This document shows positions 46,141 through 64,000 of a DNA stretch of 64,000 nt, piece after piece. The stretch comes from Mesostigma viride. Taxonomy: Eukaryota; Streptophyta; Mesostigmatophyceae; Mesostigmatales; Mesostigmataceae. Numbering within the stretch: the stretch's first letter is position 1; the number at the start of each line of letters is the position of its first letter. Location: positions 20,204-84,203 of the forward strand of contig RPFO01000580.1 of NCBI GenBank assembly GCA_009746045.1, in the 5' to 3' direction. A model generated the notes under the pieces. That model made no database searches. It worked only from the letters and a program-made list of their open reading frames with translations, and was not told the DNA's origin. The translations under genes and the position numbers were made by a program.

Positions 46141-46452
46141 AGCCCCTCATTGAGTGATGGGGTCGTGTGGGGTACCGGGGAGCCATTCTTGAGTGATGAT
46201 GGTTGAGTGATAAATTGAGTGATAAAATATTGGATTTCGTAATTATTTACTGAAGCATGTGTCAGTTGTGATTCCAGACCCTTGCCAGTATTGACTCAGA
46301 TTGTAACGTGGCTCATTTCATTGTCAGGCTCGGAGTTGCCACGGCCATTAGAAAGCTATGCCAGGGTTTGATTGATACCAAAGTTGCTAACAATGTCGTA
46401 ATACAACCAAGCAAGTTCGTATCAGATCAGGCAACCCATGAAAGGGGCGTGC
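46141..46452. other. AT-rich boundary with short TTGAGTGAT repeats
   Basis: Within 46,148-46,230 the string GAGTGAT occurs five times. No coding region is visible. This stretch separates the retroelement debris from the virus-like block and may contain the left boundary of the integrated element. Confidence 0.4.
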
Positions 46453-47019
46453 TCAAACGTTAGCTGTGTAGCCTGATTGCTGCGACCCGAATGCGAGGTT
46501 CTGCCTCTTGTTGGCGAAATCGTCCTCGTTATCATTCTCGTCGAGCTCCCGTTTCTTGTCGTTTGACCCGCTCTTGTATGCTGCAAACCCTCTCCTGGCA
46601 TCTGACCACGCGTTGATGAGGGAGAAAGCGGATATTCCGGGCTGGTGCTTCGACTTCTGGAAAGATTTCATGAAATCCTCGACCTTGTCTACGCAATCGG
46701 CGCATTCGTCAAGGCGTTTCCATTCGCACCGTTCTTCGAGCTTCCTCGGCTTGGCTGACCCCTTTTCGTAGACCCATTCGACAAGGACCTTTGGAGTTTT
46801 CCTGTCAACGGCATCGTAAGCAGCATCGTGGACTTTTAGCACCTCGCAGGTCGGCGAGTAATCACCGGCCTCGCCAGATGGTGCGACAATGCCTTCTAGT
46901 TGTTCAGAAAGGCGAGAAAGCTTGTTTTCAATTGCCGTTTGCTTGTCACAAATTTCGTCAAGTGTTTTCCCTATAAACGCAAGCGCTTTCTCACACGGCC
47001 CAGCATTTCGTGACGCCAT
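46453..47019 (-). CDS. Hypothetical protein, 188 aa
   Basis: I do not recognise this protein. Residues about 10-45 could form a short coiled coil (ICDKQTAIENKLSRLSEQLE). The middle is rich in Cys, Glu and Lys (KLEERCEWKRLDECADCVDK). The C-terminal quarter has basic and acidic patches (DKKRELDENDNEDDFANKR) like a nuclear localisation signal. The start ATG at 47,019 has context GCCATGGC on the other strand. It lies downstream of, and in the same direction as, the primase-helicase gene, so it may be the last gene of the viral minus arm. Confidence 0.5.
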   Translation of the reverse strand: MASRNAGPCEKALAFIGKTLDEICDKQTAIENKLSRLSEQLEGIVAPSGEAGDYSPTCEVLKVHDAAYDAVDRKTPKVLVEWVYEKGSAKPRKLEERCEWKRLDECADCVDKVEDFMKSFQKSKHQPGISAFSLINAWSDARRGFAAYKSGSNDKKRELDENDNEDDFANKRQNLAFGSQQSGYTANV

Positions 47020-47271
47020 GGCTATCTGTTAGCATTCACTAGACTGCAGGTTGGTTCATAATGCATTCCGGCCATCATATCAAAATTTTAGCAAGGTCAC
47101 GTTACGTCTGCTTGCATCGACCAGTGCTGCGTGAGTGTCATGCGTTTTGTCAGTGGCTGATGGAGGTATAAGGGCGGTGGTAAACTTGGCTTGTATCCCC
47201 GGTACCGGCGCGGCGCTTGGCTGGCAGCGAAAAACACAAGGTCTCTTCAACGTGCGAGGTGTGTGTGTGTG

Positions 47272-47336
47272 AATAGGCAAAATTGCTCAGAGATTTTAAA
47301 GGTAGTTCTATACTTATCTGAGCAATTTTGCCTATT
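47272..47336. other. Perfect 20-bp inverted repeat with 25-base spacer
   Basis: AATAGGCAAAATTGCTCAGA at 47,272-47,291 is the exact inverse of 47,317-47,336. It sits in the 0.48-kb gap between two minus-strand genes. Possible roles are a replication origin, transcription end or a mark of the element boundary. A (GT)n run precedes it directly. Confidence 0.75.
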
Positions 47337-47496
47337 CTGACAGAACCATCAACCATCACCACAACCACGCCACACAACAAACACACGCCTCTAAAAAACC
47401 CTGCACCGTCGCATGAGAGGAGCGGGATGGCTTTTGGTGTCACAGCAACACAAAATATCTAATACTATACCACGAGACGCGGCGTGATGGGTCTAT

Positions 47497-50400
47497 CTAT
47501 CTGAAATGATAGCCCTCGTCCATGCTTCCATGCGTCTCGTCCTGGTGGCGGAGTGATGCTAGTTCGGCCTCGTTGCCCCACCAGCCAGGCTGATACCTCT
47601 CGCAGAAGTCGAGGACACCAGCCTTTGATATTTCTAGGTCCTGCTCCTTCATATGGTACATCCGCGTGCCGCCTGCTGAAATGTTGAGTGTGCTAGCGAG
47701 TAGGGTGTTAATAAGGCTCGAACACTGAGCAAAACTCAGCGTCCCGCCAGCCCCCTTTGCCCTCCTCTGATACCCAAACACCGCGCGCATGAATGTTTGA
47801 CTCCCCATGATCTCGCGATCGATCCTATTCCCAATCTCGATCGCCTTGTCGCGAGGGATCGTCATGGTCCTGGCACTCTCGCGATCTAGGACGAACTCCT
47901 CTATCCCACTGCCCTTTAATAGATGTAGAGCAACCGCGAGAGTCTTCGCGTCACGGCCTGTTTTGTATTCACTGAGGTCAAAGAGCGAATGAGTCTTCCT
48001 CATTGCCTCAAGGACGTTCGCAAGGTACCCATCCTTGCCCAGTTCTGTCGCTCGCGAGTGCTGCCGGACAGCTCGGTAAACCGTCCGGCATTTATCCTTC
48101 TCGAGGAGCCCGGCAAGTTCCTCATCTCTACGTTCTCGCGGGATCTGGTAACTGAATTCCACGAGCTCGTAGACGTTCTTCAGCCTCTTCTCGAATGCTG
48201 TAAGAATCTCGCCTGCGTCACATCGATCCTTCAGTGCGACGTATTCTTCGTGCTCCATGATATAAACGGCACGCCCCTCGTCAGTGTCCTCTCGCTTTGG
48301 TAGTGGTGGGGCGTCGGTGTGATCCACCTTCTCGTCCGCCCTTTCCATCTTTACGTCATAATCCTCTGCTAGCATCCTGATCAGATTCGGCTTGAAGTGG
48401 CTGCGAGAAACTGCCACGTCCTGCAGGTTGCGACAGAAGAGGTTGAGGAGTGGCGAGCTTGGGTCGAATTTCCTCTTACCATCTTCACCCCACGAAGCAA
48501 TCACATCGGCGTTGTCCTTCGCCATCAGGTTCAGAAACTTGGCCTCTGTGTCGACCGTCGTCTTTTTTATCTGGTCAAAGTTGGTGTCAAGCCTCGACAG
48601 AGGTGTAGTAGAGTCTCGATAGATGATTGTCATCTCCCCCTTGCACAGGTGACGGACACGGAACATCTGTTGCAGCATGGTCGTGTATTCGGCGTATCCT
48701 GGGGCGTTGATAAAACCAGCCACCATGCTGTCGAAAGTGTGCATAGTATACGAGACTCCGACGGTGATGGTCGGCGAAATAATGAGAAAGTCGAGATCAG
48801 CCCATGCCGAATTAGCGCCGCTTTCTAGATCCTTTTTTGGCGTGTCCTTGGTGTACGATTTCCACTTCTTTGTGGACAAAATGTCCTTCAAGCCCTCGCA
48901 TACGGCCGGAACAGCCCACGCCGCGGACATTGGACAGAACAGCTTCTCCCCGGCATGCAACCGCCTCTTGCACTCAGCAACAATCTCCGCAACAAAGACC
49001 GCTTTCCAACACTTCTTAGAATCGATGTCGACCCACTTCAACACGCGATTAGTAGGGCGCTTAAACGTGTTCATAGATGCCCTGATCCCGTCAACTGGTC
49101 GGTAGTGCGCGATGTAATTGTAGACCTTCGCTGTAATGGTCGCGTCAAGCGCTATAAGCACCTTGGCGCGCTCCAAGATCTCGATAAGACGCACAATGAC
49201 CTCTCGCTTGTTCTTGAGATGGAGACCCGATAGCGCTGTCAATGTGTTGTAAATCTCGTCCATGATCACGACGTCAAAACTCGAGCTGGCGAGACGAAGG
49301 ATGGAGTTCAGAACGATGAGCACGCGGTCGTCCTTGATATACCCTCCGCGATTGTCCAGATAGTGGCGGAACCGCGGGTCTTGGGAGAGGATCCGGAACG
49401 CGGAATCCTCCCAGACGATACACTTCCCCACCTCGCCGAGTGCCTTATAATTACGGTCCTCTTCCTTCGAGAGACTGATGTTGGCGACGATGCACAGTAT
49501 GCGAACATCAGGGATCCTGCGGACAAGCTCGTTCACCATCTCTCGGACACGTTCTGATTTTCCAGTCCCACAGTTCGACTGGACAAAGTGGGTGACTTTG
49601 TGACCCTTGTCGCGGCCTCTGATAACCTCGACCAGACCGTCGACGTCAAAAGGCTTGATCTTCTCTGTGCAGTACGTCTCGCCAAACGGGACACTCTCCG
49701 CGACGAACTCGCGCCTGTCCATGATACACTCCGCGTGCTTGGGGCCCTTCTTCCAACACGAGTAGGTGACCCTTCCGTCCGAGTACTCGCACACCCTCGG
49801 GCCGTGACCAGCGCTCTTATGGGGGCGGTCCTTCTTGCACACGATACAGGGCACTTCTGGGTCGACGGTCCAGCGGGACATGTAGTATGTCCGGCCGTCC
49901 TCCCCGGCGTGCTCCTCGACATTGATGATCCGACTACCCGGCGAAACCTTCGCCATTGCCTCGATTGACCTCGCGATTTGCTCGCTGCCCGCCCCGTGCC
50001 CGCGAGGACTATACTGGGACGCCTTTTTGCGTTCCGAGCCTTTCTGGGCGTACCACGAAGCCGGAGCGCTTACTATCTCGGCGTCGTCGAGATTGTTCGT
50101 GGGGTAGACGATGGCCGAGTGTTCGCGAACGTCGTCAGACCCCTCGCATATCCTGAGACTCGCGAGAGGGTCTGTCTCCCCGAGTTTGTGCATTCCGACG
50201 GCTCTGAAGCACCAGTCCTTACCATAGATGTGATCATCGACCATTAACTGGACCTCCTTGTCGTCGTAGTATTCGCCGGGGTTAGCCAACATCTCTTCAA
50301 TGTTTTGCTCCATGTACGCCGAAGCGTGCTCGGTGCTTAGAAGCATATTGGCGTCAACGTAGAGCGACGAATCGGGGTCTAACAAATGCTCGCGGATGTA

Positions 50401-50943
50401 GCGAGTGAATGTCTGACACCAATACTGTCTCGCGTCGATGTCAGCCAGTGCCAGCCCGCGGACAACGATATGATACGAAATCTTGAGGAAACCATCCTTC
50501 TCGCGTGTCGCTGTCGAGACGTTATATTGGAACCGTTCTGGCTCGATCCCTAGAACATCGAACACGTACGCATCGTGAAGTCGCTTGAAATGGCGCGGGT
50601 AGTTGATACGCTCGCAATCCCTTCCCACGCGGTCGTCGAGATCGACGTATGCCCACGACGGCTGGTCGGGGCGGATGATCTCGTTCAGTGTCTGAGTCCG
50701 GACATTTCGCGTGCATTCCTCGCGAATTGCCGCGAATTCTTCAGCGTCTCGGTAGTGTGTGTACTCTTTCGGTCCGCGCCCGATATCCCGGGCAGCAATG
50801 TAGGAATGCCCGGCCTCGTTTGCGGCCTCGATGCAGCGGTCCTTCGGCCCCTTGCCGTCGACCCTCGACCCACCAAACCACGTTCGACCGTGGACGGTTC
50901 TGGTCAATTTCGCTCCAGTGTAGACGGACGCGGTCATGATCAA
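47497..50943 (-). CDS. Primase fused to UL9-like superfamily 2 helicase, 1,148 aa
   Basis: This is the replication protein of the virus-like element. The N-terminal part (about residues 85-260) resembles an archaeo-eukaryotic primase of the herpesvirus UL52/PrimPol kind: SWAYVDLDD (metal-binding Asp pair), KISYHIVV (S-x-H) and KDWCFRAVGMHKLG. A zinc-binding module follows (CIVCKKDRPH ... CWKKGPKHAEC). The helicase part has Walker A SNCGTGKS, Walker B VVIMDE, DATIT, and ISPTITVGVSY with QQMFRVRH near the end. This order matches the herpesvirus origin-binding protein family. It would unwind DNA and make primers during genome copying. The frame is open throughout. The usual D5-type helicase of many related viruses is not seen. 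Confidence 0.8.
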   Translation of the reverse strand: MIMTASVYTGAKLTRTVHGRTWFGGSRVDGKGPKDRCIEAANEAGHSYIAARDIGRGPKEYTHYRDAEEFAAIREECTRNVRTQTLNEIIRPDQPSWAYVDLDDRVGRDCERINYPRHFKRLHDAYVFDVLGIEPERFQYNVSTATREKDGFLKISYHIVVRGLALADIDARQYWCQTFTRYIREHLLDPDSSLYVDANMLLSTEHASAYMEQNIEEMLANPGEYYDDKEVQLMVDDHIYGKDWCFRAVGMHKLGETDPLASLRICEGSDDVREHSAIVYPTNNLDDAEIVSAPASWYAQKGSERKKASQYSPRGHGAGSEQIARSIEAMAKVSPGSRIINVEEHAGEDGRTYYMSRWTVDPEVPCIVCKKDRPHKSAGHGPRVCEYSDGRVTYSCWKKGPKHAECIMDRREFVAESVPFGETYCTEKIKPFDVDGLVEVIRGRDKGHKVTHFVQSNCGTGKSERVREMVNELVRRIPDVRILCIVANISLSKEEDRNYKALGEVGKCIVWEDSAFRILSQDPRFRHYLDNRGGYIKDDRVLIVLNSILRLASSSFDVVIMDEIYNTLTALSGLHLKNKREVIVRLIEILERAKVLIALDATITAKVYNYIAHYRPVDGIRASMNTFKRPTNRVLKWVDIDSKKCWKAVFVAEIVAECKRRLHAGEKLFCPMSAAWAVPAVCEGLKDILSTKKWKSYTKDTPKKDLESGANSAWADLDFLIISPTITVGVSYTMHTFDSMVAGFINAPGYAEYTTMLQQMFRVRHLCKGEMTIIYRDSTTPLSRLDTNFDQIKKTTVDTEAKFLNLMAKDNADVIASWGEDGKRKFDPSSPLLNLFCRNLQDVAVSRSHFKPNLIRMLAEDYDVKMERADEKVDHTDAPPLPKREDTDEGRAVYIMEHEEYVALKDRCDAGEILTAFEKRLKNVYELVEFSYQIPRERRDEELAGLLEKDKCRTVYRAVRQHSRATELGKDGYLANVLEAMRKTHSLFDLSEYKTGRDAKTLAVALHLLKGSGIEEFVLDRESARTMTIPRDKAIEIGNRIDREIMGSQTFMRAVFGYQRRAKGAGGTLSFAQCSSLINTLLASTLNISAGGTRMYHMKEQDLEISKAGVLDFCERYQPGWWGNEAELASLRHQDETHGSMDEGYHFR

Positions 50944-51132
50944 AGATGTATACCTGTAGCTTAGATTTTTTTTTTCTGGCCGAAACGAGACTGGTTTTTT
51001 TTTCTGATTGGAAGGAAGTGGATTTTATTAATCAATAATACAATTCAACTCTCTCGATAGCCGAAAAAACCCGGGACTTTTATACGTAGTATAAAAGGGC
51101 GACAAACAATTTTCAGATAGCGACAGAATCAA
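50944..51132. promoter_or_regulatory. Upstream region of the primase-helicase gene
   Basis: This AT-rich gap contains runs of T at 50,967-50,977 and 50,995-51,003 and TCTAAGC on the minus strand just upstream of the primase start. It also has ACTTTTATACGTAGTATAAAAGGG, a partial inverted repeat (CTTTTATAC/GTATAAAAG) that resembles paired TATA boxes. Confidence 0.45.
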
Positions 51133-52387
51133 TCAAACGTCTTCATCGTCCATCTTTCTTGCTTTCTCCAGAGTCGCGGGATCCAATTGATCGTTCCGCT
51201 CATACCGGATCGCCATCGCCGGGGAATGTGCCATGCCCCTTGCATATTTGATCCGTTCTGCGGACGTCGCTCTTTTCACGAACGCCGTGACGAACGCCCG
51301 CCGAGTGTTGAGGATTCCGTGATAAGTCGCGCGGTATCGCTCGCCAAACGCGGATTTGCTGATATGTCCCCGTCCTCTGCCGGCCGGGAATAACCATTTC
51401 CCGTTCGTCGAGCGGGCTTTGAGGATTTCCCGGAACGCTTTCATCGACGGCGGGACGACGAAATCGATCGGCCGAGGTCTTTCGCCGTCTTGTGGTGTCG
51501 AATACGAACCGGTTCTCGGGGACGATGAACGCGTTCTCATGTGGTCCTATCTCGCTCTCATCGTTTACGAATTGACATCGTGAAGTTGTACCGAGTGGGG
51601 GAGATTCTTTCCGCTGAGGTAAGGTACCCCATCAATTTTCATCGCTGTTTGGGTCTGCGATGGACTGTGGATCGATTGGAGCGTCTTGAAATCGTGAGCT
51701 GGAGGCACATTCTCGCTGACGTACGCGTCGATGGTCAGTCGCCCTTCCTGTTCAACTGCCTGCTGGTTTTTATAGGCCTCGACGACAGTTGCCGGGAGCT
51801 GGCGAGACGATGGGAAGATTTTGTTTATTCCGTTTATTGCAGCCGAGAGATTAGCGCGGGCCGTTCTTGCTCCTGTCGCGTCTCCCTTCTTCATGTTCTG
51901 AATCGTCGTGATGACCTTATCGACGTCCAGGAGACACGTGACGGGCTCTGTCCGGCTGCATCCAAGAGCGTCTAGGATCTGTCCAACGCGACCAACGTAC
52001 TGCTTAATCGTCGACACCGTCGCTCCTTTCGCCGTCTTAATGACCCTGTCTCCTTGCACGGTAGCTACGGGCTGGTTCTCCGGCCTGACTTGCTGGGCGG
52101 TCTCCATGACCTCGGAGAGGCTCCATAGCTTGCTCGTGGGTGCTCGCGAGACCGGGCGAGTGTCCGCGGACTTACAATCCTTCTCGGGGAGGTCCGCGTT
52201 CTTCCGGATCAGCTTTACCTCGTCGCAGTCTGTCCCGTGCTTCTGGAGCCATTTCTCGGTAGGCATCCAAGCGTCTTTCTTGGCCATCGCGCGCATCACT
52301 GGAAGCTGCACGGTCCGGGTGTTTCTGCCGGTATCTAGCCTGTGCTTCTCGTCGCATGCGGAGTTCGTCCGCTGTCCTTGAAACCAT
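51133..52387 (-). pseudogene. Tyrosine recombinase (integrase), frame-broken
   Basis: Tyrosine recombinases insert circular or linear DNA at short attachment sites. The N-terminal part starts at 52,387 (MVSRTADELRMRREAQARYR) and changes frame near 52,305. Residues of the frame 52,311-51,565 include STIKQYVGRVGQILDALGCS and LSAAINGINKIF, which look like the SAM-like core-binding domain. After a stop at 51,565 another frame carries NAFIVPENRFVFD. The last frame (51,540-51,133) has TRRAFVTAF, MAHSPAMAIRYER, which provides the conserved Arg, His and catalytic Tyr neighbourhood of the C-terminal domain. At least three frame changes separate these parts. The recombinase explains how the element entered the host chromosome. 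Confidence 0.65.
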
Positions 52388-52467
52388 GAGACTCGTATAT
52401 CCTTATGCAGAGAAATTAATTCGAGTGTGAACGAGCGTTTATTACAAAAAATGATAAATAGGTCGTT
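52388..52467. promoter_or_regulatory. AT-rich spacer between recombinase and AT-hook genes
   Basis: A short AT-rich gap that includes GAAATTAATTC and A runs. It should hold the upstream signals of the recombinase gene. The next 130 bases to the left of the AT-hook coding region hold a 7-bp hairpin at 52,535-52,551 (ACCGACC/GGTCGGT). Confidence 0.4.
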
Positions 52468-52998
52468 TTATTGCAAAAAAGTACGATTTACTTGCTTCCA
52501 CCGGGATTCGAACCCGCGTCTTCGCTTCGGAGGAACCGACCTTCGGTCGGTGGGACACTCCCTGGTTAGGTAACTTCGATAGCTTCCGCGGCCGCTAGAG
52601 CGGAATTCCACGGAAATTTCCACATATAAACGATTATTACAGTTTCGACTTCTTCGGCCTGCCCCATGGTCGTGTCGGCCTGTCGCGGGGTCGATGTTAT
52701 GAGTCCGTGGCTTCGTGTCTTTCGACCCAGCCGGTCTCCCGCGTTTCTTAGGGGTATGAGGAACTTTTTCCTTTTTAATTTTCGGTGCCCGGGGAGATTT
52801 TGGCGGAGGAGGAGGATTTCTCGGCTTTCGTTTGGACGCGATGATGGACATCAATTTCTGTCGACATTCGTGCCCGATTCCGGTGTGTGTCGGCGGGAGC
52901 TCGCCGTCATATCCACACTCTCGCACGAACGCCGCCAACCTCTCGTGAGTCTTCGAGGAGACCCTGGCCCCGGTCAAGTAACGAACGAGCGTCGACAC
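52468..52998 (-). pseudogene. Basic AT-hook-like protein, probable frame change near its end
   Basis: The N-terminal 60 residues look folded (MSTLVRYLTGARVSSKTHER). A proline-rich basic linker (NPPPPPKSPRAPKIKKEK) follows, then KKRGRPAGSKDTKPR, an AT-hook core (RGRP) that binds the minor groove of AT-rich DNA. The open frame runs to 52,468, but after about 52,665 the adjacent frame gives WGRPKKSKL and then a stop at about 52,638, a better ending with a second hook-like GRPKK. I think that is the real C-terminus and that one base has changed. It may bind viral DNA or regulate transcription. Confidence 0.5.
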
Positions 52999-53164
52999 GT
53001 TAAGGATGAGCTCTCGCCTATCAAGCCTGCGCTGGTACGAACTCTTCGGGGCGCTTTCTCCTCGATCCGGATGGATGGGAGAGATGGCGAAGACTCGTGG
53101 AAAGCATTAGGGTAAGCCTGCTTCAGATCCATTCGCGTGTATATAATAGAACACAGATTATTTT
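52999..53164. other. Short spacer, no gene
   Basis: About 165 bases between the ATPase end and the AT-hook gene start. No recognisable coding sequence. It should hold upstream signals of the AT-hook gene. Confidence 0.35.
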
Positions 53165-54038
53165 TTGATCACGAGGAAGTGGTCGAAATTTTCCGGTATC
53201 GTTTCTCGTCGTTCGGTTCGTCGTTGTCGACGGCAAGGAAATCATGAGGCGAGTCTTTCGTCGCATATTCCCACAGCGCAAGGAAATCCTCGGGCGATGT
53301 GTGTCCTGAGCTTTCCTCAGCAATCTGTCGCGAGGCTCGCCGGTCCTTCGTACGAAACAAGACGAGGAAAGAGACGTTCGCGCGCACTGACCGGGGAACC
53401 CCGGCGCTCGAGAACGATTGGTTCACATAGACCATCGATGTCAGCAGATGGCGATGTTTGAACGCGAAACTCGCGACAGGCCCTTTCGAATCCTGGCGAT
53501 AGTTTTGACCCAGCCATGTCATCTATCAAAATGACGGACGAGGGAGGACCGTACCTGAATCGCGTCTCGGGCTCTTTGAATTGGAGTCTGTCGAGGGTCA
53601 GGTACATATTGAGGTCCATGTGGTCCTCGCTTTTGTCGCCATCCAAGAAGTCCTTCTTGAATTTCTCCCATACAGCCATGTCGCGTTGGTACTCTTCGTA
53701 CCCGTCAGGTCCTTCTTGATGTCCGCCACCATTATATTGAAGTCGTTGTCTGTGTACGTTTCCATGGACATTACGGGTGTCGGCAGGAGCTTATACTTCG
53801 GCTCTGTTGTCGCGGATCCCGAGATGAGGTATAGTTTATCAAAGCTATGGGCATCAAAATACGCCTTTAGCATGTTGATAGCTGAGGTGGTCTTCCCAGT
53901 CCCGCGCATACCCACGAACGAGGCGATAAAGTGCAATCGTGGTGCGTTGGCCGGGACCTGGCGAGCTTTTGCATATCTGACCTTCAAATCCTTATTCGCA
54001 AGTGGGGTCTCTATATGGATGCTATGAATGACCGTCAT
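53165..54038 (-). pseudogene. Genome-packaging ATPase (FtsK/HerA, A32-like), two frame changes
   Basis: The enzyme pumps viral DNA into the capsid. The first frame (from 54,038) has FVGMRGTGKTTSAINML, Walker A, then LYLISGSA. The second frame has KKDFLDGDKSED and SSVILIDDM, the Walker B strand with its Asp pair. The third has FKHRHLLTSMVYVNQSF, with the Gln of the sensor motif, and VRANVSFLVLFRTKD. This order and the KHRH signature are those of the A32-type ATPases of double-jelly-roll viruses. The frame changes lie near 53,715 and 53,510. The coding order is otherwise complete, so the gene was lost recently or the assembly has two indels. Confidence 0.8.
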
Positions 54039-54059
54039 TTTATTACAATAGGATAGATT

Positions 54060-54512
54060 TTAATCATCGTTTAAGCTGGCTAGTAATTGCGCGCGGATTG
54101 CGAGCATCTTCTGCTCATACGGCGTAGTTGTCCGCACGTCCGGCAGTGGATTCGCGGCCCGTTGACGCTCCTCTTCCTCGACCTCGGCCTTCGGCTTTCT
54201 CCCGCGACGTGGGCGAGGCGTTTCCGAGGGAGTTGCCGCGACTTCTTCGGCGGCCAACAGGCGTTCGATTCGATATTTGTTCTTCTTTTCCTCGAGTTCG
54301 AGCTCGACCAGACGCTGTCGTTGTATCTCGAGTTCCTTCTCCAGAACCTTTCGCTTGGTAATCTCCGCTTCTCGCTCCTCCTGTCGCTTCTTCGCCCGCT
54401 CTTCGTTCCGTTTCTGCATGTACGGCCGCATCTTCTCGCGGAGTGCCGCACGCTGCTCTTCCGTCAATCGCTTGCCTCTCGGGCCTTTCGGCGGGTGAGG
54501 CGGGATGTACAC
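54060..54512 (-). CDS. Coiled-coil protein with AT-hook-like tail, 150 aa
   Basis: The N-terminus (MYIPPHPPKGPRGKRLTEEQ) is basic. Residues about 25-85 form a long charged helix (QEEREAEITKRKVLEKELEI, then QRQRLVELELEEKKNK), almost certainly a coiled coil. Residues about 95-110 (PRPRRGRKPKAEVE) contain an AT-hook-like RGRKP. I do not know a family. It is the first minus-strand gene left of the divergent promoter region. A role as a scaffold or DNA-bridging protein is only a guess. Confidence 0.55.
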   Translation of the reverse strand: MYIPPHPPKGPRGKRLTEEQRAALREKMRPYMQKRNEERAKKRQEEREAEITKRKVLEKELEIQRQRLVELELEEKKNKYRIERLLAAEEVAATPSETPRPRRGRKPKAEVEEEERQRAANPLPDVRTTTPYEQKMLAIRAQLLASLNDD

Positions 54513-54631
54513 TGTATTGGGGTTTCCTGCTGTGGCGCGGGATCTTCCTCGACGTCGACAGAGGTCTTGGGCGAATCCGGAGCTTCGGGAACCTGGTCCA
54601 TGGGTGCTATACTTTTAATCTTAGATAATTC
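54513..54631. promoter_or_regulatory. Divergent promoter region between the two arms
   Basis: This is the only place where the minus arm and plus arm point away from each other. It is GC-rich on the left; on the right it has CTATACTTTTAATCTTAGATAATTC just before the plus-arm start. That AT-rich TTAGATA/TATCTAA motif resembles the one in front of the major capsid gene. Confidence 0.5.
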
Positions 54632-57600
54632 ATGACACCATGGTCGTTATATATAAGCTCAAATTCGTCCGGCTTCAATATCGCAACAGGACTAGTGGAA
54701 GACGGGGTAGATGAACGAATCGCGGACGTCGAGAGCGATGTGCAAGCTCTCCAGCTCGCGGTTCACCCGTTCGACAGGCACATCACGATCAACGGGGTAC
54801 GATACATGTACCCGGAGCACCGACAAGGCTCCGACTCGGCGATAATCATTCCGACTGGACAGTGACCAGCAATGGCGAGTCGAGTGGCATGCTTGAGGTC
54901 GACGGCGGAATCGTCGCTGGCTGGATCCGGATCTCGTCTCTATGGCTGATGGACCAATATTCGCGCATGTCCCAGATCGTCGCGGATCGTATTCTGACGC
55001 GCGAACAGATCGACTGGCTATTCGATCAACACGGCGTCGGGTATACGGCCCTTCCTGATCCGACCGCGACGTTTGTGTTAGAGTATGAAGACGGAACACT
55101 GTCCGCGCCAGGAACCACGTTCACAGTCTCGAACAATCAAGACATCCGTATTCGGCTTCCCTACACGGTCACCGGAGGCAGTAGCAGCGGAAAAAACGTC
55201 TACAGCGTCCAGGTCCTCGGCGCGCTCGACCCCGTCGTTATGAGTCAAACGGTAGACGGTCCATACATCGATGACATCCATTTCGGAAGCATGAGCCATG
55301 CCTACTTCGGCAAACTGATGAGCTACGAGCAAATCGGGTTCGCGACTACGAGAGACTTGAACAGAATACAGCGGATGCCCTACAGTATTCACATCACGCG
55401 CACGTACTCCCCGTTAACGGCCTGGGACGTCGGGCGGATCGACCAGCCGACTGAGAGTTACTGGAAAACGACTGCGCCTTACCAGACATGGGTCGTCGTT
55501 GGCGACGGTGGCGCGCCTCCTCTCACGCTAGGAATCAAAAACACGACGCCGTGGGCTTACCAACGGAAGCTGCCTATCTCGTGGAAAGTCGACAATGTCG
55601 CGTTAACCGACGCGGCGGGTAGTTTTCGGCTTGACGTGGACGGGGGACTACGCGGAGAGGACGCGGTCACGTGCACATTGACGCCGGCGGATCATGGGAA
55701 GCTCGTGTCGGCCGATGTGACGATCTACAACGACGCGACGATGACTACGTCTGCCACTCAGCGAAAAATGGCCGTCGTGGGCGTGGTGAAGACCGATCCG
55801 CTCGTCCCGGCAATACGGGCACCGAGCCGTTTCTTCTCGACGTCCGCGCCGGCTCGTATAGGTGTGCAGATGTACGCGGATCATGCCATGGGGTGGGGGG
55901 ATAGCACACAGACCCCGGCAGATTACGAGGTCTTTGTGGACTGGGTCAGTAAAGGTAGTGTCACGGGAGCTGGAATGGTGAGCTGTCTTCTTGGTGACTC
56001 TACGATGCGAGAGGTTCAGGTCGTCCCGCGGTTTGTGTGCCCGAGAGATTCTCCAAACATCACCGGAGAGAGTGTGACTGTCACTGGTGCGGTTGTCACG
56101 TTCAACAGCCTCGAGCGGTTTTCTCGGGACACTGCGACAACTCTACAGCCGTCACATCACCAATACAGATACACGCCCGTTTCGTCGAGTTTCCACGCGC
56201 TGTCTGTGGATAATGTCACGCCACCTGACAAATGCGTCGTGTTTACCGACGAAGAGGTCGACGGCCCGTTCCTAATATGCTTCGAGCTCGTTGTACCGTC
56301 AGGCAGCGCATTCGTCTCGCTCTCGGACCATAACGACATAACCGGGAAGTACCACCCCTCTTTCACAGACGGTCATAATTGCTGGCGAAACCAAGGAACA
56401 ACCGACAATTGGTGGTCGGCGTGTGGCGTGAGTATAGACAAGACAAACGGAACGATCAGTCTGTATCAGAACCGGAAAGCGGCGACACATTATACGTTGA
56501 ACGCGACGTGGTCAAGCAGTACGCGTTTTTGGGTTGCGTTCCGGCGACGGTCTGACGGAATCGTCGAGCGATACATCTCGTATTTTCCTCCTGACCGTCT
56601 GAGCAGTATGACTAAGCTAGCGAATTCCGTGTCAGGCATCTTTACAACCTCGCCGACTGGGATCGTAGCCCCGTACACACCTGGTCAGGTGAGGCTTGTT
56701 TTTCATTTGGACAGTGTCAACCAGGCGATTTTCAACGCATGCGAATTGGCTGATGATACGACAGACGCCGAATTCGTTTCCTTGACTACTACGAACCCGA
56801 CCGGTCTCTACCTTTCATCAGGCGATACGATAACTCTCACTCACAGGGGCACGTCGCCGCGTGAATGTAGCATATTAGGCAATTACATGACGTCGTCGCT
56901 CGTCCCAGGCGAAACGAATCTCTACCGCGCGCAACTCACGGCGTCAAAAGACAACGTCATCCACGCCGTTTGTGAATTCCCGTCATACAACCACGCGACA
57001 CCGCTCACCAGTTATTCGGTAAAGGTGTATGGCGTGCTTCCGGATCGCCCCATGATAAACCGGTTCGAGGTCCGTCTACTATACGATGACGCCTTACTAT
57101 ACCGCATCAACGAGCGACCTATCCAGTTGTCTAAAGGCCCGGACTGGGAGAATGGGGTCTCGACGATCGGTCACGGGTTCGTGGGTGATATTCCGTATGT
57201 CCAATTCTCTGTGCTGATGCCGACTCCGTTTCGCTACGAATTCGGCCACTTGTTCACAGCGACGTTTGAGGTTCGATCTTCGTCGCTTGTCGGCGGTCCT
57301 GACGGGATTTTCATGGATCTGTCGATGGCTCGTTTCTTCGGAGAGGGGCCGACAGAAATTGGGCTGATCACGGCGCTAGACGAGTGCGCGTATACGGATG
57401 CACGAGAGGCGAGACGAGTTTCGTTTTCTATCCGTGGACTGCGGACCATTGCGTACGATTACATGCAGCCCGAGCTCTGGGAACTTGGTCCTCAGGGCAT
57501 CATGAGTTTCCGCGACGACGATGGGAATCTCGTCCCTCCCGCGACGACGCTAGATAAGTTCTACTGCCGCGTGCAGTTCACACACGGAGCGCCGCCCTTG

Positions 57601-57876
57601 CTGGAGATCGGGCACCCGTACAGATTTCTCGCAAGTGCTCTCGACTTCGTGTATCAGCCCGGGAGCTCGTGCAGACTCGTCGTGGGTCCTTCGTGGCGTG
57701 TCGCACCCGGATTCGACGAGTCCGACGGAGTCTACGAAATACTACTGCACGTCGACAAGACGCTCGGGTCCGGCAGCGCAGTCGCGTACATCAAGCCGCA
57801 AGTCGAGCACTGTCGCTCGAGATCAGGGGTAGCGGCTAGCGGAGAGATCTTCGCGGCGGTGACCTGGCTCGTTTAA
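54632..57876 (+). pseudogene. Very large beta-rich protein, putative virion surface protein, one frame change
   Basis: The coding region starts at 54,632 (MTPWSLYISSNSSGFNIATG, then GVDERIADVESDVQALQLAV, a short helix). It changes frame near 54,850-54,862, where the long frame has no ATG and would need a GTG start; the two frames read as one protein of about 1,080 residues. The rest is dominated by short beta strands with many Thr, Ser, Val and Gly, few charged helices and no transmembrane segment. One part (about 56,260-56,600; PFLICFELVVPSGSAFVSLS ... WRNQGTTDNWWSACGVSIDK) resembles a lectin-like or SPRY-like sandwich. Large proteins of this kind are commonly fibres or attachment proteins. 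No family is recognised. Confidence 0.5.
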
Positions 57877-57904
57877 AATCTTTGAGATATGTCAAGGACA
57901 CACC

Positions 57905-58225
57905 ATGCCGCGAAAGACATCGAAACGATCAGCTAAGAAACCGTCCAAAGCCCCGCGCAAGCCCCGAGCGCCTCCGAAGAAGGCCGCGACGACCGCGCTG
58001 ACGAACTCGATTGTCATCCACTCGCCCCACGTTACCCGTCCCGCGAAAAGGGGAAAGGTCGCCGAAGTCCGTGGGTTTAAGGACGCGATGTTGTTGGCGG
58101 CTCTCGCGTCGAACTCTCGCCCTGTAGTCTACCCACCATTGTCCGCCTACGACCAACCGGCCTCCGTTCCGGCTCCAGAACCGGCCGCTGCCTCGGCGCA
58201 GGGTCTGACGAACCTCTCCGCGTAG
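57905..58225 (+). CDS. Small basic protein, candidate DNA-condensing core protein, 106 aa
   Basis: Residues 1-30 are almost only Lys, Arg, Pro, Ser and Ala (KPSKAPRKPRAPPKKAA). They are followed by a conserved-looking centre (HVTRPAKRGKVAEVRGFKDA) and a Pro/Ala-rich tail. Its small size, positive charge and place among virion genes recall DNA-packing core proteins of adenovirus-like viruses. That is an analogy and not homology I can show. The next open frame follows after 5 bases without an ATG. Confidence 0.5.
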   Translation: MPRKTSKRSAKKPSKAPRKPRAPPKKAATTALTNSIVIHSPHVTRPAKRGKVAEVRGFKDAMLLAALASNSRPVVYPPLSAYDQPASVPAPEPAAASAQGLTNLSA

Positions 58226-58230
58226 AGATC

Positions 58231-58455
58231 GTGGGATCCGCGCCTCCGCCAGCTGCTAGAGACCCCGTTGCTAGGACGCCGCCTCGTCCCAGAGTGCGAG
58301 TCGCCAACGTGACCGATAGAGTCAATTGCACGGTCCCGGGCTGCAAAAATACGTTTGTCGATAGTCGGCGGTTGGATACTCACCTACGAGACAAACATCA
58401 CGTGACTGAAGGTGTCCCTGTGGCGATAAAGGGGCCGGTCCGAGCTCGCGGATAA
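58231..58455 (+). CDS. C2H2 zinc-finger protein, start unclear
   Basis: The frame contains NCTVPGCKNTFVDSRRLDTH followed by LRDKHH: C-X4-C-X12-H-X4-H, a single classical C2H2 finger. There is no ATG: the frame opens with GTG at 58,231 and remains open a little upstream, overlapping the basic protein. Either it is the C-terminal end of that basic protein after a frame change, or it is expressed by frameshifting or a non-ATG start. Single fingers of this kind occur in small DNA-virus proteins and may bind nucleic acid. Confidence 0.5.
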   Translation: MGSAPPPAARDPVARTPPRPRVRVANVTDRVNCTVPGCKNTFVDSRRLDTHLRDKHHVTEGVPVAIKGPVRARG

Positions 58456-58491
58456 ATTTTCTAAACAGATCATAAAACGATTTCGGTGCGA

Positions 58492-58787
58492 ATGGAGCTG
58501 TCAGATGCTGAGATGCTGCAGAGCCCAGTGGATGATCTTACCCCGACGTTCCTCGCGATTTCCTGGAATCGGCGATGTTCTATTGCAATAAGCCGCTGAC
58601 TGGGAAGGAAAGGCGACAGCTTAAACGTAGCGCGCGAGGTCTCGCTGGTGGCGAGGGAAAGGTTGTGGTCCACGGCAGGAACGAGATTAAATCGGAACTC
58701 ATTGTAACAGAGAATGAGGGATCACGTACAGGAGTGCCGGACGCTGACCCTAAGGACCGAGAACAGGACAAGGGGCAGTCTTCATGA
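58492..58787 (+). pseudogene. Hypothetical protein, probable frame change
   Basis: An ATG at 58,492 opens MELSDAEMLQSPVDDL and stops at the TGA at 58,600. The overlapping frame from about 58,540 reads YPDVPRDFLESAMFYCNKPL, then TGKERRQLKRSARGLAGGEG and KVVVHGRNEIKSELIVTENE to a stop at 58,785. The two parts look like one protein of about 98 residues with a lost base near 58,540. The family is unknown. It fits the packed plus arm: 35 bases after the zinc-finger frame and 6 bases before the next gene. Confidence 0.45.
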
Positions 58788-58793
58788 TCCTAC

Positions 58794-59542
58794 ATGGGAT
58801 ATCCCGGCCGGGTTGCTCGAGATTACCACGACGTCGGGCTGACCTTCTCACAATCCCATTCGAACAGACGCACATCAACCAACCAACGCTCATTCGAGGT
58901 GGTGATGCAGTCCGCCCACACTGTCTCGCTCCACTGGATCGTGGACGACGATCGAGAACAGACACAATATCGAGGCGGTCTTGCAGACCATCGACAGTTC
59001 GTTCGGGTCACGTACGACCGCGCGAACAGTCTGTACACTTTTGCGGCCAGTTCGCCGTTCCAGCTACGAGTCGGCGAGTCCGTCGGGCGTGTCCTGGGAC
59101 TTGTCCCGGGCGTTCACGCGTCCAACGACCAACACGTAATAGTGAGCAATCGACCGGCTACGAACGGACGCCTGAGGGCCGTCTACGTGTACGCCGACAT
59201 CGTGCGGGGAATGTAGTGTCCGCGACTCACGGGGCTGTCTACGGGGGTTTGTTGGCGTGTTGCCCGAACCTTAGCAAGTTCCTAGAACCGATCGTGTGGC
59301 AGGCGCAGACTCCGCTCTGGCAGCATATGAGGGACTCCCCGCGCGGGATCAGTCTCCGCCTGCTGGACGAGGACGACGTGCCGGTCCAGTTGTATAGTGA
59401 CTGGGTCGTCCAGCTCAGTTTCCGGATATCGCCACAGAAGCGATGGGCGTGGAGTCGCGAAGATCGCGAGCGTCCTGCGGTACATTGGCGCTTGGCGGGG
59501 AAGTCCTGCCGGCCAGAAAGATATCTCAGCGTTCTGTTATAA
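58794..59542 (+). pseudogene. Probable penton-like minor capsid protein, one frame change
   Basis: The first frame (58,794-59,216) contains NSLYTFAASSPFQLRVGESV and GRVLGLVPG and ends AVYVYADIVRGM. The second frame continues with GAVYGGLLACCPNLSKFLEP and GISLRLLDEDDVPVQLYSDWVVQLSFRI. The pattern F.l..SPF.L...vLGf ... YVY.DIV ... I.l.D..g.pv......w.v.L.fRI is shared by a virion protein of adintovirus/polinton-like elements that is encoded beside the major capsid gene, as I recall the family. The frame change lies at about 59,205-59,220. It would form the five-fold vertices of the capsid. The position directly upstream of the capsid genes supports the call. Confidence 0.6.
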
Positions 59543-59558
59543 ACGACGACGAGGACGA

Positions 59559-59843
59559 ATGAAGCTCGACTTTGGAAAGGTTGTCAACACCGTGCGAAAG
59601 ATCGGACACGTAGCCGGAGACGCTATCCGGAAAGTGGGACATGGCGCGCGACTCGTGAAAGCGGCCGCTGGTGCTGCCGATTCGGCTCTCGGGCATGTCC
59701 CGAGCAAGTTGATCGAGGCGTCCCCGGTCCTCGGGACGGCTTACCGTGTCGCGAAAACAGGGTTGGACGCGTTGTCTTCCCTCGAACGTAAAGTAGACGC
59801 GCACAAGGCCGCGAATCCGCTTCTGGGCCAGTTCCTCCACTAG
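59559..59843 (+). CDS. Small helical virion-type protein, 94 aa
   Basis: The start at 59,559 (MKLDFGKVVNTVRKIGHVAG) is chosen because the previous gene ends at 59,542 and the upstream open frame is probably chance. The protein alternates hydrophobic and basic residues (DAIRKVGHGARLVKAAAGAA) and should form amphipathic helices; it ends ANPLLGQFLH. Its size, amphipathic character and location just before the major capsid gene recall membrane-active minor capsid proteins such as adenovirus protein VI. That is inferred only. Confidence 0.5.
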   Translation: MKLDFGKVVNTVRKIGHVAGDAIRKVGHGARLVKAAAGAADSALGHVPSKLIEASPVLGTAYRVAKTGLDALSSLERKVDAHKAANPLLGQFLH

Positions 59844-59881
59844 CCAGAATATTATCTAACTAACTGGTATACAACGCTCTC
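59844..59881 (+). promoter_or_regulatory. AT-rich upstream region of the major capsid gene
   Basis: The 38-base gap reads GAATATTATCTAACTAAC before the ATG at 59,882. TCTA in an AT-rich setting is the late promoter core reported for mavirus and its giant-virus host. Similar TCTAA-containing stretches precede other genes here. This is a candidate only. Confidence 0.4.
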
Positions 59882-61126
59882 ATGGCTTCCGACGGCAGTT
59901 GGTACAATCGCGCGATCCCGAAGTCGATGCAGTACCTCATTAAGACGCTCGGTCAGCACTCTACGTCCCGCGTGCAGCTCTCCACGCTATCCGCGAACTC
60001 CGGCATCAAGCAGGGGTCCGTGGTGGCTGTCCGGCTGCCTACCCACGGGTTTGCCGACCTTCACTCGTTCGCCATGTTCTTTCAAGCGACCCCGGCTGCG
60101 ACGGCCGGGTTTTGCAAGTTCCCCCCGTACACGTCTTCGCTCATTAGGCGGCTCGAGGTGCTGGTTGGTGGACAATCTGTGGACTCGATCAACGATTACG
60201 CCCAGCTCTTTAACACATTGTTGTCAGTCCATGGAGGACAGGGTTTTGTCAACTCTCAGGCGCCTGCCGGATGGTCTCTGAACGACCCGGCTAACGTGAC
60301 ACTTACAGCAAACACAGCACAAGAAGGTATTATTGACAATTGGCTCGGGTTCTTGTCTGGTGACCCTCGAATCATCGACCTCAGTCTCTTTCCACCGATC
60401 GAGATCCGGATCACGCTAATGGATGGCGCTGTGATGATCCCAGGAGCTGCTAATGCCGGTGCAGGTATTGCGGCCGGAACTGGTCTCGGGTTTCAGCTGG
60501 ATAACATCCACTTCTCCATCGACACGTACAGGTTCCAGGAGGACGTCTCCCAAATCTTCGCGGCTCGGTTGGCTGAAGGTGGCACGTTGCCGTTCAAGTG
60601 GAAGACCTGGCAATCCACCAAACAGACGATTCCCGGAGACACCTACAGCATCAAGGCCACCCTATCGTCAGCATCCGCGTCAAAGTTGTTGGCCATCCAG
60701 GTAGCAGCAGCGGCCGATGTGTCAAACGCGCGATACAACACCATGTTCGCGCACACCGCCGACGCCCTCACCGGGTTCCAATTCGACATCAACGGCAGCA
60801 ATCAGACCCCGGCGTACAGGATGGGCATCACAGAGGCATGGGTGAACCTGGTTAGCGCCTTCAATGACCAGGGGAACAGTCTGTCATGCGCAAGATCGGC
60901 TATCGCTCCGGATACATGGTCCACTAAAGATTTTGTCATGGCGTGTCACCTGAACATGCCATGTGCCGGCGCTGAGTACCAGAGTGGCCTCGACCTGCGG
61001 GGTACTGCAGCGGTTGTGACTTTGCGCGTTGACACCGCGGGTGCGGATCATATCTCGTACATCTTCGTAGAAATGGAGTCTAAGATGGACGTCGGAGCCG
61101 GACGGCAGGCGGCAGTCTATCTGTAA
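59882..61126 (+). CDS. Probable major capsid protein (double jelly-roll), 414 aa
   Basis: This would be the shell protein of the virus-like element. The N-terminal domain has GSVVAVRLPTHGFADLHSFA and then SSLIRRLEVLVGGQSVDSIN with DYAQLFNTLL. That combination, a strand ending in RRLEV..gGQ.vd.i..Y..l.n.ll, is typical of double jelly-roll capsid proteins of polinton-like viruses and adintoviruses. The second half has IDLSLFPPIEIRITL and LDNIHFSIDTYRF, strands and loops suiting the second barrel, and ends DHISYIFVEMESKMDVG. There is no transmembrane segment. At 414 residues it is somewhat short for the group. The frame is fully open. No similarity search could be run. Confidence 0.7.
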   Translation: MASDGSWYNRAIPKSMQYLIKTLGQHSTSRVQLSTLSANSGIKQGSVVAVRLPTHGFADLHSFAMFFQATPAATAGFCKFPPYTSSLIRRLEVLVGGQSVDSINDYAQLFNTLLSVHGGQGFVNSQAPAGWSLNDPANVTLTANTAQEGIIDNWLGFLSGDPRIIDLSLFPPIEIRITLMDGAVMIPGAANAGAGIAAGTGLGFQLDNIHFSIDTYRFQEDVSQIFAARLAEGGTLPFKWKTWQSTKQTIPGDTYSIKATLSSASASKLLAIQVAAAADVSNARYNTMFAHTADALTGFQFDINGSNQTPAYRMGITEAWVNLVSAFNDQGNSLSCARSAIAPDTWSTKDFVMACHLNMPCAGAEYQSGLDLRGTAAVVTLRVDTAGADHISYIFVEMESKMDVGAGRQAAVYL

Positions 61127-61166
61127 AAATCTCTGATAGTTACTGTAAAGCGCTCGATGGAATATC

Positions 61167-62330
61167 TCAAAGATCGCGATATACCGCGAATCCGTTTAGT
61201 AGAGTCACTTTGATTTTCGACACACCGTCGATAGCTGATAAAGGCACGGCGATGGGGTTGCCAGGCAGGAAAGGACCGCTGATGGAGCCCAAGTTTCAGT
61301 ATCCTTTGCCAGGTTCTAAAAAATAGTGTCATTGTGTAGTATGTCAGCAGCATGTCTTTTGATTACGGTGTCTGTCCTGCTTTGATTAATAAAAAGAAGC
61401 GCGTTGTCGCGCCTTCCATAACATATAACATTAACGACAAACCGGAACATATCCTAGCGCGTCTCAATTAAAGTGAAGCGACGTTTCAGTCCAGCCGGTC
61501 ACGGGGTTCGCCTTAGACGATATCGTTCGTAGTCAGACGGGGCCATTGCCACTGCCGGCAGCGGGGCGTCGTCATCATTCCAAGTGCGCCGCCAACGACG
61601 CATTTCGCGACTACAGTGGCGTCGGAGCGGCGGGCGGTGGAGTCAACTTTGAAGGTGCACGGAACAAAGCCTCGACTCCATCTGGTCCTTCACGTACTCC
61701 AGCCCCTCCAACGGTGACGCCTCGCGCGACCGTGCGGACGGGGCTCGACGCCATCCCTCGACACCCGTTGAGTGAACGCCACGTTCAGCAGGTCCGTCAC
61801 GGGGTTCGCGTTGGCCGATATCAACGGTGACAACGGGACAGCGCCAACCTGAAACCGGCAGCGGGGCGTCGTACGCCTTCCGGTGACGCCGACGACCCGC
61901 TTACAACGGCCACGAGTGTCAATCGTGGGCGCTGGAGTTGTCGCGGAGCTATCGATGGACGCAACGTGGCTTCCACACACTGTCATCTCCGTATTCCCTC
62001 AGCCACCGTCACGCTGGTCGACTCCGCGGGGTCCACTTCGCCTGGAGTTTCCATATCCGCGAGGCGGACTTTCAGTCGAGCAGTGACCGGTTTTGCATTG
62101 GGCGACATACACGGTGATAAACGGGAACAGCTTCCAATTTTGGTAGGCAGCGGGCGTCGTACACGTTCAACGTGAGGCGACAACGGCCAAATTCCGCCAC
62201 GTCCTTCACATCGCGCAGGGGCCGCGACAGACACCAGTTGTTCGGGACGGCACTCAGCTTTGAACTCGCTATGTTCACGTTTACCCCATACACCCCGCCA
62301 CGATCCGGCTCTGTATGCGTGGGTAGACCA
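61167..62330 (-). pseudogene. Decayed minus-strand repeat protein, about 290-bp repeats
   Basis: The minus strand contains pieces of a protein in several frames. The last piece (61,295-61,167) reads SISGPFLPGNPIAVPLSAID and KIKVTLLNGFAV before a stop. Further pieces give PLISANANPVTDLLNVAFTQ (about 61,830-61,770) and CMSPNAKPVTARLKVRL (about 62,110-62,060). At DNA level the blocks start near 61,501, 61,799 and 62,086. Repeats of about 97 residues rich in beta-type sequence suggest a fibre-like protein. It points toward the capsid gene and ends 41 bases after it. Many frame breaks make it a pseudogene. Confidence 0.5.
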
Positions 62331-63660
62331 AACGACTCTTCGACGCCTTAGCAACACATTTTTACCACTCGCCACGACTTCGGTAGCGGGGTATGGAAGG
62401 ACAGAAGGGGACCAGCATTACTGTGCTTCACCACCAATGCGCCGACCATCGCGATACCAGCTTAAACTCTAAAGCGGCTCTCGTTCAGTAAGCAGGTTTA
62501 CAGTTTGGCTTGTACGGGCGTTCCAGAGCGACGGGTTTTTTTTTGGGGTCGTCCGCGAAAACACTAATGATTCGTCGCGCAAAATCAAACACCCGAGCGT
62601 TTACCCTCCGCGGGTCAGTAGTAGGTTGAAAGGTCTTTGTTGTCGGGTGCTCAAAGTAATTACGGACTGAGCATCTGCAACAACGCGACGATTACGAGTT
62701 TTATGCGCTTTGGGGTACGGGAGCCATCACGATCTGCACGAATGCAAGTTTTACTGACGGCCGGGCGGCACGTGATGGCAGTGTCGTGTGACCTAGGAAG
62801 CACGCCAAACGTCCATTCACCAGATTTTGATGGTAAAGAGTGGTGGGGCGTACACCAGGTACGCGCGGTACAGAATCAGGAAGGATCTGTGTTGGCGCGG
62901 ATATAGATTGGAAGCACTCGTAACTGGGGACGGAATGGACGGGAGATTCTGAATCTACAGCACGCAAGACGCGGCTGAGCTCGAACAGATCCGAAGGCTT
63001 ATCTAGTGCAGCAAATGGGGCACGCTGCCGCCATACCCCAACGTAGATAGCCGGTTGACACTATTATCTCCCGTTAAATGTATAACAAAGCATGGGACTA
63101 TCGCGTATTTCTACCGAGCATCTTAGACTCTGAGAAGGCCACAAGAGTTCGACGAAACGACTATGCGGGCCGTGGTTTGTCGTAAAGCCAGAGCTAGGAG
63201 GTCCTGTAATCGGACGAGACTGGGCGTGGAGGAGCACACGCGGCTTATCTGGCCAATGTCGAAGGCCGCGGCCAATTAAGACTAATCGGAATAGTTTCGC
63301 CGGAAATTTTACGGGTGGGGTCGCATCAACGTAAAGACGAGGTGGCGTTAGGTCTGACGAATGCTACGGAACTGAGGCGACAATCCTACATCATGATAAA
63401 CGATCAGCAGCTATTTCACAATCTCGGAGACCCATACTGTTCCGAAACGGAGGCGGCGTTTGACTATGGCGGGATGGTTCATTTGGACCCGCGGCTCGAG
63501 CGACGCTGCTACGAGTCGCCTGATGCTCCGCAGACAGCTTTCTGTCGCTCCCCGATTCGAGAAATCCGACAAGGTTTGACATCGTGTAAATGCCATCACA
63601 AGTAGACAGGATTAAACGCGTAACGACTCAGTGTAAAAGGTGCACTGTTAATCGTATTTG
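62331..63660. other. Probable decayed coding sequence, no recognisable gene
   Basis: The composition resembles the viral block, and several short open frames exist (for example 62,637-62,906 and 63,315-63,605 on the plus strand). None has recognisable motifs or repeats. The plus frame at 63,315 contains INDQQLFHNLGDPYCSETEA, which is protein-like but unidentified. Confidence 0.35.
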
Positions 63661-63825
63661 ATTAATAATTATCTTACATGATCTTATAAAAAACGTTTCC
63701 AACATGTTCTACCATGATGCATCCTCATTGCATCGGGCCTGCAAACGGGCAGTGGCGGGCTAATCCGAGCGGCACGCGGCGGTCCGTTAACGCCGCGGAG
63801 TCGCGCGAGTTTCTTGCAACGTCGC

Positions 63826-64000
63826 CGGAAGCCCGATCCGTACGAGGATATTCAATTCGAATTAGACCAACTAGACGATTCACGCATCTTCTCGCTCGGC
63901 TGCTTGTGTGCGCTTGGAGACGAGCGATTCTGGACGAAATTATCAAGGGCCGTGCGAGGACTTGGTCGTTGTATCCATAATGCCGGACTTTGCGTCAACC
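63826..64000 (+). CDS. Partial open frame running off the window
   Basis: One plus frame is open to the last base and reads KPDPYEDIQFELDQLDDSRI, then FSLGCLCALGDERFWTKLSR and GRCIHNAGLC. It looks like true coding sequence because of its hydrophobic and acidic pattern. No ATG is visible in this frame; a possible start MFYHDASSLHRACKRAVAG lies at about 63,703 in another frame, so a frame change is likely. The family is unknown. Confidence 0.35.

Follow-up and report, generated by a model that had tools for sequence, protein, structure and literature searches.

The window analysed here is a stretch of 64,000 nucleotides (nt) from the genome of the streptophyte alga Mesostigma viride (C1710:20204-84203 in an assembly of 440 Mb and 2,243 contigs; the window end is the contig end). 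From 46.13 to 64.0 kb it very probably holds a degraded copy of an endogenous DNA virus of the polinton-like kind, about 18.4 kb long when complete. The original prediction, made from the window's letters, of an endogenous virus of double-jelly-roll (DJR) type in a unicellular eukaryote was upheld because of the capsid fold match, the motifs of a packaging ATPase, the residues of a tyrosine recombinase, terminal inverted repeats, the number of copies in the host genome and purifying selection. The element is not a product of chance: 40 copies were scored at 80-100% DNA identity, and its capsid gene is under selection. The kind of virus is already known; the Mesostigma element is a variant of it by virtue of its capsid lineage, its type of replicase and its terminal palindromes.

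Extent, copies and virion genes

Comparison with other copies placed the left end at 46131-46142, where a TA tract is followed by AGCCCCTCATTGAGTGATGGGG, and on the right the element runs past the window and contig end, so that the element predicted at 46453..64000 stood and both of its limits shifted. In the C1890 copy, the equivalent of window position 63997 sits 506 bases short of the opposite terminus; the window copy has accordingly lost its right terminus about 0.5 kb beyond the contig end, and the whole would measure about 18.4 kb. Six end pairs, paired by hand, lie 17.9-20.1 kb apart (C1548, C794, C1432, C998, C1535 and C1568).

The search of the host assembly for further copies and terminal repeats, suggested at the outset, yielded both. 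Terminal inverted repeats of 613 bp with 99% identity delimit the C1548 copy; such repeats and a length within 15-30 kb are hallmarks of polinton-like viruses (PLVs). The 40 DNA-level copies, window included, were scored among 268 candidates. Capsid genes occupy at least 136 places in the genome, 101 of a first lineage (scored among 530 candidates; 93 of the 101 stop-free) and 35 of a second, counted by hand among 133 matches (88 of 658 candidates scored). These genes are under purifying selection with dN/dS near 0.1. Of the 28 pairs among eight capsid genes, 24 show differences and have a dN/dS of 0.071-0.121, many with dS >1.6; 19 distinct genes from 30 loci gave a median of 0.124 (range 0.071-0.201; 65 pairs with dS 0.1-1.5).

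The capsid-like 414-residue protein of the original prediction was confirmed as an open reading frame (ORF) at 59882-61126. Judged by its structural model, it is a capsid protein with an N-terminal domain of DJR type, of which the first jelly roll was modelled. The closest solved structures to this N-terminal half are DJR capsid and scaffold proteins, with the capsids of African swine fever virus (ASFV; p72) and faustovirus as the best PDB capsid matches; in BFVD a medusavirus protein ranked second, and a Tetraselmis viridis virus S1 protein was also matched. In sequence, only 7 of 7,992 scored candidates from 5.8 billion proteins match the capsid, namely three Mesostigma gene models and four other proteins on contigs up to 18.0 kb, for which reason the undescribed group that had been suggested is possible. 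One of the gene models, P0002, matches the assembly at 100% over 488/488 residues in two places and appears to join the capsid with the small protein encoded before it, which would explain the stops counted in its match.

The ATPase carries Walker A, ILIDDM and KHRH motifs that are invariant in four of four copies, of which two lack part of the C-terminus; it is an FtsK/HerA (A32) packaging ATPase of the sort found in PLVs. The C1890 copy gave a terminase-like PHROG match (6.6e-4), and the protein had no Pfam match above cut-off and no PDB match below E 0.49. The predicted motif set was recovered on the minus strand at 53.2-54.06 kb, spread over three different frames instead of one intact gene. 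The tyrosine-recombinase residues were likewise found in a gene that is split in the window copy, and the penton-like protein beside the capsid, its gene also split, is a candidate by position and size.

Two divergent gene arms, announced at 54.55 kb, meet at about 54.6-54.7 kb. The left arm, on the minus strand, holds in order a 188-residue ORF (in some copies), a replicase of 1148 residues, the recombinase, a small basic protein, the ATPase and a charged protein. The right arm holds a surface protein, a small basic protein, the penton candidate, a small protein, the capsid, an Ig-domain protein, a 170-residue protein and a last small gene. The features are as follows.

46131..46237, plus strand: outermost part of the left terminal inverted repeat; TA tract, AGCCCCTCATTGAGTGATGGGG..., and TTGAGTGAT four times, at 46150, 46189, 46203 and 46215
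46453..47019, minus strand: 188-residue ORF inside the left end, between outer terminal repeat and palindrome
47271..47337, no strand: perfect inverted repeat of 20 nt around an AT-rich spacer of 27 nt, within the left terminal repeat region; candidate origin of replication
47497..50943, minus strand: replicase of 1148 residues, primase-like N-terminal motifs and UL9/CyRepA1-type superfamily 2 (SF2) helicase (Pfam, PDB, motifs)
51133..52467, minus strand: tyrosine recombinase (by residues), in at least two frames here; about 420 residues open in other copies
52471..53106, minus strand: small basic protein
53169..54059, minus strand: FtsK/A32-like packaging ATPase (motifs, PHROG), in three frames here; 294-305 residues open elsewhere
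54060..54614, minus strand: charged protein that closes the left arm, probably a coiled coil; Metal_resist was matched weakly in Pfam, below cut-off
54715..57876, plus strand: long virion-surface candidate, first gene of the right arm
57863..58225, plus strand: small basic protein, 190 residues from the first Met in other copies
58754..59539, plus strand: penton (minor capsid) candidate, in at least two frames here; 285 residues open elsewhere
59331..59843, plus strand: small protein directly before the capsid gene, adjacent also in the Mesostigma gene model joining both
59882..61126, plus strand: major capsid protein, 414 residues, open frame
61477..62172, plus strand: remnants of the Ig-domain gene, three bacterial-Ig-like (Big_12) domains; about 560 residues (561) open elsewhere
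63210..63605, plus strand: remnant of the 170-residue gene
63714..64000, plus strand: beginning of the small gene that comes last ahead of the right terminal repeat, identified by eye from copies C1568 and C1548; the gene continues past the contig end
42540..46127, minus strand: fragments of a retroelement resembling a long interspersed nuclear element (LINE) and other repeats, beside the virus and not part of it

The surface protein given as 1,080 residues is a long ORF, of that length in the C1048 copy; in the window it has 1004 residues from the first listed start, or 1053 codons from stop to stop, and it had no family match. The 188-residue ORF, which had no match among Pfam families, was found in C1568 and, cut, in C1048, and is missing from the C1548 copy. 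The Ig-domain gene of 561 residues, the 170-residue gene, the small gene at the right end, the four TTGAGTGAT repeats and the palindrome are additions to the original prediction. In the gene after the capsid, Big_12 matches reached 1.3e-29 and 5.7e-31 (L011:6094-7782 and L020:8166-9860), and the Ig-domain protein is possibly a virion decoration.

The copies differ in how their modules are combined. Towards the first C1568 element, DNA identity of the window copy is 99-100% across most of the replicase gene and 98-100% across the surface gene past its start, and only 71-73% in the capsid gene. With the second C1568 element, which is otherwise divergent, the window copy shares 91% identity in the capsid protein. 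The other proteins, measured with open copies, are 87% (ATPase), 80% (penton candidate), 77% (surface), 57% (Ig), 42% (recombinase) and 35% (replicase N-terminus) identical to those of that second element. From these contrasting identities we infer that capsid genes and replication modules were swapped among lineages within the genome.

Replicase, palindromes and virus ends

The primase/UL9-like protein of the original prediction was substantiated as the 1148-residue ORF at 47497-50943. Its N-terminal 431 residues matched no Pfam family; the positions DLDD, S-x-H and CFR-x-VG-x-HK are retained in a relative with 37% identity, and we take them to fit archaeo-eukaryotic primase (AEP) motifs. The helicase core is of SF2 and of the Herpes_ori_bp family (Pfam 8.1e-16, 57.7 bits vs a cut-off of 20), which makes it UL9-type. 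The replicase also matched PDB replication origin-binding proteins (2e-5), which PMC12543377 suggests are herpesviral, and the C1548 replicase matched CyRepA1 at 5.8e-22, below the model's curated cut-off.

The window element has a single perfect inverted repeat whose arms reach at least 10 nt and whose spacer measures 10-40 nt, the one at 47271-47337. In 100 random sequences matched to it in dinucleotide composition, the mean number of hits was 0.83 for arms of 10 nt and 0.03 for 12 nt, and arms of 14 nt did not occur. The outer motif of the 47271-47337 repeat was found at 12 places in the window and 13 further pieces, and at 12 of 12 the arms are fully complementary, in a search pattern that fixed the outer arm letters and left only the inner letters free. 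The inner letters occur in two variants, AAAATT and CTTTTT, which change on both sides, and the second C1568 element has a palindrome pair of its own with TGCTCA in common. The C1548 palindromes lie within its terminal repeats, and that of the window lies within the interrupted left repeat. These terminal-repeat palindromes with AT-rich spacers are candidate replication origins to which the helicase would bind.

A TA run stands against the conserved end in 27 of 27 ends examined, followed inside by four TTGAGTGAT repeats in 26 ends and three in the remaining one. Elements whose recombinases share only 42% identity show visible conservation in their first 110 bp. Joined virus ends would form a palindrome around ATATATAT that is a plausible site for a tyrosine recombinase. 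In cryptophyte PLVs with a tyrosine recombinase, target duplications are mostly missing and circularisation is assumed (PMC12220804).

Repeats adjoin the virus in several places. The virus end in the window has a 75-nt LINE 3' end (46052-46127) directly against it, and LINE ends abut virus ends at several further sites. Copies of the LINE-like 3' end of 132 nt lie at 44593, 44794 and 45161, in addition to the 75-nt remnant at 46052. The target duplications at 44593 and 46052, read by eye, include a TA tract, so that this LINE and the virus ends share a type of sequence where they meet. A 170-bp satellite array occurs at C1468:3528547-3530815 and at C1106:2672507-2672764, where it directly adjoins a virus end. 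In C1568 (L017:2597-2910), two virus elements stand back to back with one short common junction that holds a LINE remnant, and similar adjoining virus ends are present at C667:1440454-1440676 and C1945:773254-773482.

As proposed here, the virus DNA would be packaged into an icosahedral particle by the capsid, the penton candidate and the ATPase. Integration would, rather probably, proceed through the tyrosine recombinase at joined ends, at the palindrome GGGGCT-ATATATAT-AGCCCC flanked by TTGAGTGAT repeats. Replication may, at somewhat under even chances, be carried out by a host polymerase after the helicase-primase has opened the palindromes of the terminal repeats, and not be primed by protein at the ends. 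A tentative extension, which we hold to be doubtful, is that this PLV lineage gave up protein priming, with the primase-UL9-type helicase opening the palindromes and the recombinase integrating a circle or resolving hairpin-like termini.

Classification and competing explanations

Of the groups named in the original prediction, the PLVs were retained. The DJR-type capsid, packaging ATPase, penton candidate, terminal inverted repeats, tyrosine recombinase, length of 15-30 kb, many integrated copies and module exchange are shared with PgVV/Gezel-14T, TVS and endogenous protist PLVs (PMC4642659, PMC10120064, PMC12220804). Unlike in those viruses, the Mesostigma capsid matches in sequence only Mesostigma gene models and four other proteins, the replicase belongs to the UL9/CyRepA1 type in place of TVpol-S3H, AEP-S3H or family B DNA polymerase (PolB), and an Ig-domain protein is present. 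A polinton or adintovirus does not fit at the Pfam level: among the proteins scanned, which leave out the last right-end gene, neither PolB nor a retroviral-type integrase was matched, and a very divergent PolB can escape Pfam. For virophages, marked by their capsid, penton, ATPase and cysteine protease, the same proteins gave no protease or capsid match in general Pfam, whose models differ from the official marker profiles.

A primase joined to an SF2 helicase is described for the Prim-S2H PLVs, to which the Mesostigma element is likened by description and not by sequence. They comprise 20 Rhodomonas elements (Rhodomonas lacustris cluster C2) and one MELD virus (BK066479) and are rare among cryptophyte PLVs; 71% of cluster C2 has a retroviral-type integrase and 15.8% a tyrosine recombinase (PMC12220804). 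The same domain order with a UL9-like helicase is reported for mimivirus R8, ASFV F1055L, Ostreid herpesvirus 1 and some yaravirids (PMC11253617), from which the element differs in genome size, gene set and integration. PLVs of Cymbomonas tetramitiformis share the green algal host and, in some, the tyrosine recombinase, with more than 1,500 capsid genes there, and differ in their PolB or TVpol-type polymerases (PMC10675990). Protists, green algae included, are known to harbour endogenous PLVs whose capsid genes can number up to thousands in a genome (PMC10120064, PMC10675990). A protist-genome survey in PNAS reported PLV capsids from streptophytes and may already have counted the Mesostigma copies (PMC10120064).

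Several results weigh against an endogenous PLV. The capsid model has a mean pLDDT (predicted local distance difference test) of 42.5 and its C-terminal half one of 31.8, so that the structure prediction proposed for this protein bore out the first jelly roll alone. In BFVD the TM-scores (template modelling) are low, at 0.39/0.36 in the top row, and the rows at E <=0.001 include non-capsid proteins, for example a plant-virus movement protein. The window capsid protein had no Pfam capsid match, and one of the six members of the capsid alignment, a copy other than the window's, matched Capsid_N weakly (0.035). The recombinase had no significant Pfam, NCBIfam or PDB match (best PHROG value 0.045, for a relative), the penton candidate no significant family or PDB match, and scans of IMG/VR gave no relative. 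No empty site with both flanks was obtained, and at C1106 the 170-bp satellite stands beside the virus end without a TA tract at the junction, for which reason the tract may belong to the virus end rather than to a pre-existing target. Identical capsid genes recur and C794 and C1587 have a common flank; some of the copies in the count may stem from segmental duplication or from redundant contigs. The window copy is broken, with its ATPase, recombinase, penton-like and Ig-domain genes split across frames, and is itself unlikely to be acting; open versions of the split genes are present in other copies, and some of the breaks could be assembly errors.

The many copies in one genome, the back-to-back insertions, the lack of an IMG/VR relative and the broken genes of the window copy would also suit a purely intracellular transposon of polinton descent, with leftover capsid genes and spread only by the recombinase within the host genome. 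This is distinctly improbable given the purifying selection on the capsid genes, 93 of 101 scored copies of which are stop-free, the better conservation of ATPase, penton candidate, capsid and surface protein than of recombinase and replicase N-terminus in the divergent element, and the capsid relatives outside the Mesostigma gene models on contigs up to 18.0 kb. We regard as very improbable a small integrated mriyavirus or other member of the giant-virus side (Nucleocytoviricota). The AEP-SF2 architecture of the replicase is described there (PMC11253617), and the capsid matches to ASFV p72, faustovirus and medusavirus point the same way, but a ranking of folds cannot settle ancestry, the element carries a tyrosine recombinase and measures about 18-20 kb vs 35-45 kb, and VLTF2, VLTF3, HUH endonuclease and RuvC had no Pfam match among the proteins scanned. 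Mriyaviruses were rejected on this size and on the gene content at the Pfam level.

The same virus might instead have hairpin telomeres, formed by the TA tract and inverted arms and resolved by a telomere-resolvase-like recombinase, with integration incidental. The near-perfect palindrome that joined ends would form, the TA run at 27 of 27 ends, its absence from the neighbouring satellite at one site and the lack of a protein-primed polymerase at the Pfam level are consistent with such ends; no resolvase family match and no free genome were seen, however, which leaves this version improbable. The endogenous PLV whose recombinase acts at joined ends is the reading we prefer.

Implications for Mesostigma and its viruses

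A deep-branching streptophyte alga, close to the root of the land-plant lineage, hosts a large family of integrated DNA viruses whose capsid genes are mostly open, and the copies of this family offer natural variants with swapped structural and replication modules. If the palindromes are origins as proposed, a switch from protein-primed to origin-dependent replication would become directly testable, and a herpesvirus-like origin logic would operate in small DJR viruses.

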